NCBI GenBank assembly: GCA_014654415.1
Contig: JACWDC010000002.1
Location: 1-64,000, forward strand
Length of the DNA: 64,000 nt
From: Pelagibacterales bacterium SAG-MED05
GTDB lineage: Bacteria > Pseudomonadota > Alphaproteobacteria > Pelagibacterales > Pelagibacteraceae
Direction: 5' to 3'
A program made the translations under genes and the position numbers. This document shows, piece by piece, positions 54,866 to 60,100 of the stretch. The notes beneath the pieces were generated by a model. It did not search any database and had not been told where the DNA came from. It worked only from the letters and a program-made list of their open reading frames with translations. Each line of letters begins with the position of its first letter. Position 1 is the stretch's first letter.

Positions 54866-55422
54866 ATCTGTAATATCTCTTTTTCTTTTTCAGCTAAAAT
54901 TTTATCTATATTTTCAATATTAACATCAGTTAATTTTTGAATATTTTTTTCAAATGTTTTATTCTCATCTTCTGAAATGACTTTCTCTTTAAGTGTTTTT
55001 TTTAATTCTTCATTAGCTTCTCTTCTTATATTTCTAATTGATACTTTCGCTTTTTCTCCCATTCCTTTTAAAATTTTTATCAAATCCTTTCTTCTTTCCT
55101 CTGTTAAGTCAGGAATTCTTAACCTAATTATTTGACCATCAATTTGCGGATTAATACCAAGTTCTGATTTTTGTATAGCTGAATCTATTAAGTTTACATT
55201 AGCTTTATCCCAAACTTGGACTGATATAAGTCTAGCTTCGGGAACACTAACTGTTCCAAGTTGATCTATTGGCATTAACTGTCCATAAACGTCAACTTTA
55301 ATAGTATCCAGCATGTTAGAATTAGCCCTCCCTGTTCGAAGTGTAGATAAATCTTTTTTGAAAGATTGAATACTCTTCTCCATCTTAGAAGAATAATTAA
55401 TCTCATTAAATTCTGAGCTCAT
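54862..55422 (-). CDS. frr: Ribosome recycling factor
   Basis: A 186-residue cytoplasmic factor that splits post-termination ribosomes with EF-G. Features: LSTLRTGRANSNMLDTIKVD, YGQLMPIDQLGTVSVPEAR, IRLRIPDLTEERRKDLIKIL and KVSIRNIRREANEELKK, full family length. It starts two bases after the tsf stop. pyrH, which usually lies between tsf and frr, is missing. Confidence 0.97.
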   Translation of the reverse strand: MSSEFNEINYSSKMEKSIQSFKKDLSTLRTGRANSNMLDTIKVDVYGQLMPIDQLGTVSVPEARLISVQVWDKANVNLIDSAIQKSELGINPQIDGQIIRLRIPDLTEERRKDLIKILKGMGEKAKVSIRNIRREANEELKKTLKEKVISEDENKTFEKNIQKLTDVNIENIDKILAEKEKEILQI

Positions 55423-55424
55423 CT

Positions 55425-56291
55425 TTAAATCCCTTCACCAACTTTATATCTAATAAAATTCAATACTTTTACTTCTTTTTCAATTTTATTCTCTTTAAGT
55501 ATATCAGATACTTTCTTTTTAGGATCCATTATCCAAATTTGATTTAAAAGTGTATTGTCATTGATAAATTTAGTAATTTTACCTTTTGATATTTTTTCTA
55601 CCATATCCTGAGGTTTACCAGAATTAGTAATTTCTGCCTTTATTATTTCTAGTTCTTTATTAATTATTTCTTTTTTTATTCCATCTTTTTCAATGGCAAG
55701 TGGATTAGAGGCTGCTATATGCATAGCAACTTTATTTCCAATATCTTCGTTCTTATCTCGCACTATTCCGTCTAACTGAACAATAGAAATTATTTTACCT
55801 ATATTTTTTTCTATTGCAGAATGAACATAAAAAAAATTTAAACCTTTTTTATTATCAAAGAAATTAGTTCTTCTGACAGTTATTTTTTCTCCAATTTTAG
55901 CTATTAGAGCAACTAAACTATCTTTTACTGTCTTTCCATTTTTCATTTTAAAATCATTAAGTTTATCTAAATTTCCCAGAGTTAAAAAATTGATATCTGA
56001 AAGTTCTTTGCAAAAAGAAATAAAGTCTTTATTTTTAGCAACAAAGTCGGTTTCGCTGTTTATTTCTATAATGGACACTTTATTCTCTTTTTCTGTTACT
56101 AGAGCTAAACCTTCTGACGCTGTTCTGCTCATTTTTTTTGAGGCTTTTGCAATACCTTTTTTCCTTAAAAATTCTATTGATTTTTCTATATCTCCTTTTG
56201 AATCGTCAAGAGCCGCTTTACAATCTTTAAAACCCACCCCTGTAAGCTCTCTAAGCTTTTTGATATTATCTAATAAATCTTTATTTGACAT
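55425..56291 (-). CDS. tsf: Elongation factor Ts
   Basis: A 288-residue nucleotide exchange factor for EF-Tu. It opens with IKKLRELTGVGFKDCKAALDD, has DIEKSIEFLRKKGIAKASKKMSRTASEG and the central ETDFVAKNKDF motif that inserts into EF-Tu, and a C-terminal dimerisation-like part with KVLNFIRYKVGEGI. Follows rpsB after 17 bases, as is usual, so rpsB leader control would also affect it. Confidence 0.97.
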   Translation of the reverse strand: MSNKDLLDNIKKLRELTGVGFKDCKAALDDSKGDIEKSIEFLRKKGIAKASKKMSRTASEGLALVTEKENKVSIIEINSETDFVAKNKDFISFCKELSDINFLTLGNLDKLNDFKMKNGKTVKDSLVALIAKIGEKITVRRTNFFDNKKGLNFFYVHSAIEKNIGKIISIVQLDGIVRDKNEDIGNKVAMHIAASNPLAIEKDGIKKEIINKELEIIKAEITNSGKPQDMVEKISKGKITKFINDNTLLNQIWIMDPKKKVSDILKENKIEKEVKVLNFIRYKVGEGI

Positions 56292-56308: not shown

Positions 56309-57058
56309 TTATTTTTTTTTACTTTCAGATTTTTTTTCTAATTTTTTTTCTTCTAGAGGTTCAGGATCTTTTATAAATTTTTCCGCATCTTTAATTGTAT
56401 TTTTCAGTAAATCACAGTAAAGATTTATAGATCTTCTAGCATCATCGTTGCCTGGTATTGGAAAACTAATTCCTGTTGGGTCAGAATTAGTATCTAGTAT
56501 TGCTACTATTGGTATTCCAAGTTTTTTTGCTTCTGCAACCGCTAGAGACTCGACATTGGTATCAATAATAAAAATTAAATCAGGTGTTTTTTTCATTTCT
56601 GAAATACCACCTAATGATCTTTGGAGTTTTTCTTTCTCTTTGCTAAACTTTAAAATTTCTTTTTTTGTAAAACCTATATTTTCTTTTGATAACTGTTCAT
56701 TTAATTTCTTTAATCGTTTAATTGAATTTTGTATCGTATTCCAATTCGTTAGCATTCCACCTAACCATCGATAATTAACAAAAAATTGTCCTGTTTCTTT
56801 TGCTAAGTCACTAACTTGTTCAGATGCTTGTTTTTTTGTGGAAACAATAAGAATTTTTCCACCTTCAGATATAGTTTTGTGTACTTGTACTAAAGCATTT
56901 TTCAAAAATTCAACTGTTTGAGTTAAGTCAATTATATGAATAGAATTTTTTTCTCCAAAAATATATTCTTTCATTTTTGGATTCCATCTTAAGGTTTTGT
57001 GTCCAAGATGCACTCCTGCTTCTAATAGTTGTTTGATGTCTACTTTAGGTACGTTCAT
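56309..57058 (-). CDS. rpsB: 30S ribosomal protein S2
   Basis: A 249-residue S2 protein. Motifs: [55 protein letters not shown], and [61 protein letters not shown] in the central domain. A Lys-rich tail ends it. It heads the rpsB-tsf-frr-uppS-cdsA-dxr run. Its leader can fold into a pseudoknot-like structure overlapping the ribosome-binding region (see 57067-57129). Confidence 0.98.
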
Positions 57059-57066
57059 AATTTTTT

Positions 57067-57129
57067 CCGGTTAATCCACCACAGTTACTCCAAATTAACG
57101 GACCGGGGGGCAATGCCCTTAAAACTGTG
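57067..57129 (-). promoter_or_regulatory. Structured rpsB leader with pseudoknot-like pairing
   Basis: Reading the minus strand 5' to 3': CACAGTT (57129-57123), a small GGGC..GCCC hairpin (57118-57108), CCGG-TCCG-TTAAT (57106-57094), AACTGTG (57086-57080), ATTAACCGG (57075-57067), then ATG at 57058. CACAGTT pairs exactly with AACTGTG, and CCGG..TTAAT pairs with ATTAACCGG apart from a four-base bulge. The two stems interleave, as in an H-type pseudoknot, and the last strand covers the Shine-Dalgarno position. Autoregulation of rpsB-tsf by S2 is known in other bacteria. Confidence 0.65.
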
Positions 57130-57177
57130 TGCGAAATTAATTACTGATATATAGAACCAAGCTAAAAAATCAACCTT

Positions 57178-60100
57178 CTAAACGGTTATTTTTCTGACAT
57201 ATTCTTTGCTTTTTATTGCTTTTAGATGGTTAAAATCAAATTTTCTTGAGTTCTGAAGATTATAGTAAATTTTTTTATTCTTATTATGAATAACTAAACA
57301 TATTTCTGTTTGGCCTTTATTTTCTAAAAGTTTTTTTAATTCATTAATATCGTAATTTTCATTCAGCTCTATAATCACTTTTGAATATGGTTTATTAATA
57401 ATGTCATTTAAACTTAATATTTTTCTAACATTTACACGTCTTTGAGATGACTCATTAATCAGTTTATCTTTTTGCAATGTCAAAACAAATGACTCCGACT
57501 CTTTAATTTTGTCTCTACTTTGGATTAAGATTTCAGCAAATAAAAATAACTCAAATTCTCCTTCATTGTCACTAAACTTAACAATGGCAAACGGCGTACC
57601 TTTAGCGCTTTTTTTTTCTTGTATTGACATGATTGTGCCAGCAATTAAAGCTTCGTTACCATTGTTTGTTAAGAAATCTTTGTAAGTCTTAATATTTAAT
57701 TGATTAAAAATTTCTTTATATTCGTTTAATGGATGATCTGAAATATAAAAACCTAAAGACTTAAATTCTTCTAATAAAAGTTCTTTTTTAGTCCACCCTT
57801 TTGATTGAATATAATCAAAATTACTTTGTGCATTGTTGTCACTAAATAAATTTGTTTGATGATTTAGTTTATCATCGTTAATATTTTTTATTTTTTGAAT
57901 TATTTTTGGTATAGAATTTAAAATTTTATTTCTATCTTGATCAAATTCGTCAAATGCACCTGCCTTAACTAATCCCTCTAATTGCAACTTATTTACATCT
58001 TTAGCATCCACCCTATTAATAAAATCAATTAAAGATTTGAATTTACCTTTTTTTTCTCTTTCATTTACTATGTTTGATATTGCTTCAAAACCAACATTCT
58101 TAATAGCACCTAAACCATAATAAATTTTATTTTTTTCTGTTTTAAATTCTGCAAAACATTCGTTTATTGCAGGTCTGATTATCGTAATTTTTAATCTCTT
58201 TAGCTCTTCAACAAATTCTCTTAATTTTGAAGTATTTGTCAATTCAGTTGACATTGTGGCTGCTATAAAATCTTCTTTATAATAAGTTTTCAAAAATGCT
58301 GTTTGATAAGCTATTAATGCGTATGCAGCAGCATGGCTTTTATTAAATCCATACTGAGCGAAAGGTTCTATTTTGGTAAAAACAAAATTTGCCACATCTT
58401 TACCAATACCATTTTTAATTGCTCCATTAATAAATCTTTCTTTTTGTTTGTCTAATTCTGCTTTCTTCTTTTTTCCCATAGCTCTTCTTAAAATATCAGC
58501 TTCTCCTGCAGTGAAGCCTGCTAAAGTTTGAGCAATTTGCATAACTTGCTCTTGATAGATAATAATTCCATAGGTTGGTTTTAAAATTTTTTCTAAAGTA
58601 GGATGAATATAATCAGGTGTTTTAATTTTATTTTTGCAATCATTATAAATTGGTATATTGCTCATTGGGCCTGGTCTGTAGAGAGCTACTAGAGCAATTA
58701 TATCATCAAATCTATTTGGTTTCATTTGTTTAATAGCTTCTCTCATTCCAGTACTTTCTAATTGAAATAGTCCTGTAGTTTCCCCTGTCGATAAAAGATT
58801 ATAAACTTTTTCATCTTCAAGATTAATTTTACTGATATCTAAATCTTTTTTTTTTAATTTTAACCTTTTTAAAGTTTTATTAATTACGGTCAAAGTTTTT
58901 AAACCAAGCAAATCAAATTTTACTAAGCCAGCATTCTCGGAGGAGTACATATCATACTGAGTGGATGGTAAAATTAAATTTGAACTTTGATCTACGTATA
59001 GCGGAAACTGTTCAGCCAATTTATTGCCCGCAATGACAACTCCTGCAGCATGAGTTGCCATATTGCGGTTTAATCCCTCTAATTTTAAAGAAAGATCGAT
59101 AAGTTTTTCAACTTTTTTATTGTTTTTTATTTCCTCTTTAAATCGTGGTTCTCGATCAATTGATTCCTGGAGAGTTAAAGGTCTTGATGGATCAAAAGGT
59201 ACCATTTTACAAATTTTATCTACATGTCCATAAGATAAACCCAAAACTCTACCAACATCTCTTAATGCCATTCTAGCTTTCAGTTTTCCAAAAGTAATAA
59301 TATGGGCTACACCATCTTTATATTTTGATTTTAAATATTCAAATACTTTATCTCTTTGTTCCTCACAAAAATCTATATCAAAATCAGGCATTGAGATTCT
59401 ATCTGGATTTAAAAATCTTTCAAAAATTAAATCAAATTCTATGGGATCAATATCAGTAATATCCAAACTATACGCAACTAAAGAACCCGCTCCCGAACCT
59501 CTTCCGGGTCCAACAGGTATAGAGCTCTTTTTAGCCCATTTAATATAATCAGATACAATCAAAAAATAGCTTGAATAATCCATTGAGTTAATAATATCAA
59601 GTTCATGTATTAATCTATCTTCATATATTTTTTTAATTTTATCTAAAGACTTTTCTTTAGTTTTTTTATAAATAAAATTGTTCAATCTTACGTTTAAACC
59701 TCTTTTAGCCTGTTCCATAAGTTCATGATTAGGAGAAATATTTTTATCATCTGATATAGATGGTAAGATAGGCTTTGATTTTTTTGGTTTAAAATTGAAT
59801 CTTAAAGGAAAACTATAATTATTTTCTAATGCTTCAGGAATATCTTCGTATAACTTTTTAAGTTCATCACTTTTTTTTAAATAGTGTTGATTGCTATAAC
59901 GAAATCTATTTTGATCGCCTATAAACTGTTTTTCCCCTATACAAATCAAAGCATCATGAGCTTCTGCCATTCCAGAATCTAAATAATAAACTTCCTGTCC
60001 AGCAATTAAAGGAAGTTCGTATAAAGATGAGATTTTAAATAAATAATTTTCATAATTTGATTCTTGTGATTCTGCATGTCTTTGAATCTCAATATATAAA

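Follow-up and report, generated by a model that had tools for sequence, protein, structure and literature searches.

The window, that is, the whole stretch of 64,000 nucleotides that was analysed, derives from a SAR11 genome and carries rpsB followed downstream by tsf on the minus strand, both genes being confirmed by NCBIfam (Table 1). On this strand, rpsB is separated from dnaE, the stop codon of which lies at 57180-57178, by a gap of 119 nt. This gap holds the leader described here. The order of genes beyond tsf was also recorded. The end of tsf is at 55425 and the start of frr at 55422, with frr and uppS directly after tsf and pyrH absent at approximately 55423. The common position of pyrH, the gene for UMP kinase, is between tsf and frr. 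A match to TIGR02075 (pyrH) above the cut-off was found neither in the genome itself nor in any of 41 genomes of the family, whereas 10 of 14 control genomes had one. Sub-cut-off matches, in reading frames of 250-425 amino acids, were present in 39 of the 41 family genomes and absent from two, and these weak matches may be other amino-acid kinases.

Table 1. Positions of the genes and leader elements in the window
Feature	Position	Strand	Evidence or remark
rpsB (ribosomal protein S2)	56309..57058	(-)	NCBIfam TIGR01011, 318.3 bits, E 2.1e-95
rpsB start codon ATG	57058-57056	(-)	
tsf (elongation factor Ts)	55425..56291	(-)	NCBIfam TIGR00116, E 6.4e-75
Possible promoter TTGATT, 16 nt, TATATC	57146..57173	(-)	upstream of P1; inferred
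P1, 5' strand CGC-A-CACAGUU, conserved bulged A57130	57123..57133	(-)	pairs with 57086-57077
P2 hairpin GGGC-AUU-GCCC	57108..57118	(-)	sequence; hairpin of at least 4 bp possible in 54/79 leaders
Pseudoknot 5' strand CCGGU, junction J2-3	57102..57106	(-)	79/79 leaders; RF01815 consensus CCGGU
P3 stem CCG/UGG (3 bp, one G-U), loop UUAAUU	57090..57101	(-)	stem test
P1, 3' strand AACUGUGGUG	57077..57086	(-)	alignment covariation
Pseudoknot 3' strand ACCGG	57067..57071	(-)	-13 to -9 from rpsB start

An initial sequence-only reading had proposed that two interleaved stems and a small GC hairpin form a pseudoknot-like fold just before rpsB. The exact 7-bp stem pairs 57129-57123 with 57086-57080, as had been proposed, and the GC hairpin is GGGC/GCCC (57118-57115 with 57111-57108). 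The patch was rightly described as rich in G+C, with a value of 0.483 at 57060-57119 against 0.183-0.417 in non-overlapping 60-nt pieces of 56500-57699. The second stem, of 9 bp with a bulge, was interpreted as CCGG (57106-57103) plus UUAAU (57098-57094) against AUUAACCGG (57075-57067). This pairing is present, but the conserved knot comprises only 5 bp and the extension is found in a minority of relatives. Taken alone, such geometry proves little. A comparable arrangement, defined as one stem of 7 bp or longer interleaved with another of 5 bp or longer that has at least 3 G/C, turned up in 104 of 2000 dinucleotide shuffles of the gap; among 2130 pieces of the same length from both strands of the window, 32 had one. 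The energy of the nested fold does not stand out from that of shuffles (z = -0.01). The deciding evidence must therefore come from comparison with relatives.

The comparison set consisted of 79 distinct Pelagibacterales rpsB leaders aligned with MAFFT, and was partly selected by RF01815, the Rfam model of the rpsB motif, itself. P1 is longer than first noted, with 10 bp and a bulged A57130. Its register runs C57133-G57077, G57132-U57078 and C57131-G57079, then the bulge, then C57129-G57080 to U57123-A57086. It was obtained with RNAalifold on the same 79-leader alignment and thus has some built-in lean. An earlier register with a bulged G57079 was dropped for the one with bulged A57130, which adds two covarying pairs. 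A lack of compensatory changes in relatives had been named as grounds against the fold; P1 has such changes, 7 of its 10 pairs being changed on both sides among the 79 leaders. For P1 and the knot together, 96.4% of alignment cells are paired, and there are 79 cells with both-sided changes against a shuffled mean of 22.6. The covariation score of 0.202 compares with 0.077 for shuffled alignments and 0.070 for the best slid version. The bulged A is present in 79/79 leaders and the RF01815 structure line has the same bulge. In 34/79 leaders the innermost pair, 57123-57086, does not form.

The knot CCGGU/ACCGG was recovered exactly by string search in all 79 SAR11 leaders, 4-10 nt from the ATG and at 8 nt in 50 of them. 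This count includes alignment row L115, which is offset by one base. It was likewise present in 41/41 distinct leaders from 44 SAR11 loci that were picked by S2 protein match alone. Three of the five knot pairs are invariant in SAR11 and the other two break in one aligned row each, so the support for the knot there is conservation and not covariation. Outside SAR11, 50 loci were compared (L045-L094, of which 48 carry alphaproteobacterial titles and two are titled Proteobacteria only), and the knot is exact in 47, as CCGGU/ACCGG in 46 and as UCGGU/ACCGA in one (L068). Among the remaining three, the contig of L060 ends too early, L090 has one G-U pair, and L092 contains, by eye, UCGGU/ACCGA at a greater distance from the start. 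The two compensated forms, in L068 and L092, lend support to the knot itself. A minimal leader of P1 and knot, without P2 and P3, was seen by eye in L091, L093 and L094 (AG-913-F06, AG-422-J16 and AG-453-N02), all uncultured alphaproteobacterial isolates. At the level of sequence comparison, the fold, its conservation and its place in SAR11 are demonstrated. The RNA fold before rpsB, with its stem, hairpin and interleaved pseudoknot, is confirmed as real, and a regulatory RNA had thus been correctly read from raw sequence.

P2 and P3 are less certain than P1 and the knot. Of the 79 leaders, 54 can form a P2 hairpin with 4 bp or more, against a shuffled mean of 24.9 and maximum of 34. A P3 stem right after CCGGU reaches at least 2 bp in all 79 (shuffled mean 60.4, maximum 71) and at least 3 bp in 52 (mean 27.7, maximum 41); all three counts are alignment-free within the segment. 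The P3 variants CUC/GAG and CUGC/GCAG were observed by eye among relatives. In the 79-leader alignment the main helices are poorly aligned, with 52.7% of cells paired for P2 and 64.6% for P3. These values are no better than that of the previously proposed knot extension: its extra four-pair helix (columns 65-68) has 60.5% of its cells paired, and its pairs are changed on both sides in 1, 4, 7 and 10 rows. Between P3 and this extension, only the alignment-free test favours P3.

As the conserved form, the longer knot (CCGG and UUAAU paired with AUUAACCGG) was rejected on account of its exact extension being found in a minority of the 79 leaders. This extension is exact over 5 nt in 8/79 and over 4 nt in 26/79, with shuffled means of 2.3 and 9.8. 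Such counts were reached by 0 of 300 shuffles, which ignore the relatedness of the leaders. The single pair at columns 61/91 has gaps in 48/79 rows. The whole-structure score is 0.168 with the longer knot versus 0.185 with P3, a small difference. In the window's own leader molecule the longer knot may nevertheless form.

A full-length match to Rfam RF01815 'rpsB' was obtained at 57133-57050 of the minus strand, with 31.5 bits and an E value of 8.8e-5 when 241 nt were searched, and is the sole RF01815 match in the genome at E <= 10. The score lies below the Rfam gathering cut-off of 40, which is why a whole-window Rfam search at the cut-off gave only a tRNA. This 40-bit value is a score line set by curators and not a structural trait. 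Meyer et al. (2009; BMC Genomics 10:268, PMC2704228), in the sections available, reported the motif from 'Ca. Pelagibacter ubique', where dnaE and rpsB are 129 nt apart and the motif lies between them, and described P1, P2, P3 and a pseudoknot of five bp that J2-3 forms with the strand following P1. The window's leader is situated in the 5' leader of rpsB, its P1 is closed by a junction from which P2 and P3 branch, the motif allowing either of these to be short, and the five-bp pseudoknot joins the same two segments. It is to this published motif, and not by the Rfam score line, that the leader is assigned. As a member of the rpsB motif it is unremarkable and already known. The sequence-only reading had left room for a match to known S2 leaders; that match is RF01815, described in SAR11 in 2009, and the identification as a pseudoknotted S2 (rpsB) leader was correct, with the same P1/P2/P3 and knot. 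Rfam gives RF01815 the type 'Gene; sRNA', whereas the RNA is a cis leader. According to the accessible text of PMC6429828 (2019), which used a related pipeline, the rpsB RNA was found again in SAR11 strain HIMB5. In the accessible part of PMC4448311, rpsB appears only in E. coli table rows.

At E <= 0.01 with strict filters, RF01815 was matched in 108 of 197 Pelagibacterales genomes. At the 40-bit cut-off it was matched in 0 of 197, in the very order where the motif was first described. Across the class, 91 of 142 matched at E <= 0.01 with strict filters and 36 of 142 scored above the cut-off. Caulobacter was the only one of 14 named control genomes to match at E <= 0.01, below the cut-off, and no match to E. 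coli was returned by the control searches even at E <= 10. The SAR11 misses are probably due in part to the filters and to incomplete genomes, because the 41/41 leaders chosen by S2 alone have the knot. The motif is found in every one of the 79 distinct Pelagibacterales leaders, yet is missed by the Rfam cut-off in 197/197 genomes.

A transcription start downstream of the first strand of P1 would remove that strand from the mRNA. Of 33 leaders of close relatives (S2 identity >79%), 31 have a TATA-like box (TATAT, TATAA, TATAC or TGTATA) 17-19 nt ahead of CGCACAC; the distance is 18 nt in 27, and the box is usually preceded by TTGATT. From this we infer a transcript start near 57140, before P1; the box upstream suggests, without proof, that the first strand is retained. 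The window's candidate TTGATT/TATATC was not called by a promoter consensus scan.

The last strand of the fold had been placed at the Shine-Dalgarno (SD) position, where folding would hide the ribosome-binding site. The place was right, the 3' strand of the knot being at -13 to -9 and the fold ending 8 nt from the rpsB start codon, but there is no SD there to hide. No SD 4-mer precedes the window's rpsB, even when the last letters of the knot are counted. Between knot and start, an SD 4-mer occurs in 1 of 79 SAR11 leaders (12 of 79 including the knot's last letters) versus 44 of the 47 other loci with an exact knot. In the loci outside SAR11 the spacing from knot to start is 7-20 nt. The absence was set aside as an rpsB-specific feature, since SD 4-mers are rare before the window's genes in general. 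They precede 9 of 57 predicted genes, with 4.4 expected by shuffling, in a control in which gene starts were taken as the first ATG and are hence uncertain. The missing SD thus seems to reflect a general tendency of this genome rather than a trait of the rpsB leader. No mention of the spacing or of the missing SD in SAR11 rpsB leaders was found in the accessible text of the open-access literature searched.

The leader is very probably the form that the rpsB motif takes in SAR11, acting as an S2-bound cis repressor of the rpsB-tsf mRNA. P1, P2 and P3 would form a three-way junction, with CCGGU pairing with ACCGG before the start codon. Surplus S2 would bind this fold, together with S1 in E. coli, and halt translation of rpsB-tsf, repression setting in once S2 exceeds the free 30S subunits. 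Positions -13 to -9 are inside the span covered by the 30S subunit, so a stabilised fold with the knot at these positions would be expected to hinder ribosome entry directly. Such direct blocking of initiation in SAR11 is a guess from the position of the knot. That S2 is the ligand of the SAR11 leader would follow from the shared motif, and feedback repression by S2 in SAR11 is likely by analogy. As E. coli has no RF01815 match, the transfer of function draws on the statement in the available sections of PMC2704228 that most Gammaproteobacteria share the motif. It has been reported in a 2024 review (PMC10931766, accessible text) that S2 represses rpsB-tsf with the help of S1 in E. coli.

The same conservation might be expected if the fold acted without S2, in protection of the mRNA end or in the tuning of initiation as a standby or S1 site. 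In a leader without an SD 4-mer, initiation may depend on something else. This role is nonetheless improbable, given that other alphaproteobacteria also carry this fold ahead of rpsB (knot in 47/50 loci) and that S2 of E. coli represses its own leader (PMC10931766, accessible text). Action by early transcription termination would have precedent among ribosomal protein leaders, some of which regulate transcription according to the available sections of Meyer et al. (PMC2704228). It is very unlikely here, as the terminator scan returned no terminator-like site in 57050-57400 and 8 nt separate the end of the fold from the start codon. Chance pairing in a short gap, despite the similar arrangements in 104/2000 shuffles, is scarcely credible against the covariation of P1 and a knot in 79/79 leaders.

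Returning to repression by S2, a tentative and rather doubtful extension is that in SAR11 the S2 operator and the region of ribosome entry have become one. The knot strand would then lie where other alphaproteobacteria keep a free SD, and repression would be a direct block of SD-less initiation, unlike the distant mode reported for E. coli. Even for E. coli, the accessible text of PMC10931766 describes the mechanism as unclear, and for this reason the short, SD-less SAR11 layout might help to settle how S2 represses.

The closest known system is the published rpsB motif. The window's leader is in the same dnaE-rpsB gap and the same bacterial order, and has the bulged P1, the short P2 and P3 and the 5-bp pseudoknot linking J2-3 to the strand that follows P1. 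The shortness of P2 and P3 is shared with 'Ca. P. ubique', as stated in the available sections of PMC2704228. The two differ in score, with 31.5 bits for the leader versus the cut-off of 40. They differ also in layout, the SAR11 knot standing 4-10 nt before the ATG, usually without an intervening SD, whereas other alphaproteobacterial loci mostly have one. The rpsB-tsf operator of E. coli (Aseev et al. 2008, as cited in the accessible parts of PMC2704228 and PMC10931766) controls the same gene pair, although the RF01815 control searches do not match E. coli. The accessible text of PMC10931766 states that the ribosome-binding site is not part of the E. coli operator, whereas in SAR11 the knot strand abuts the start region.
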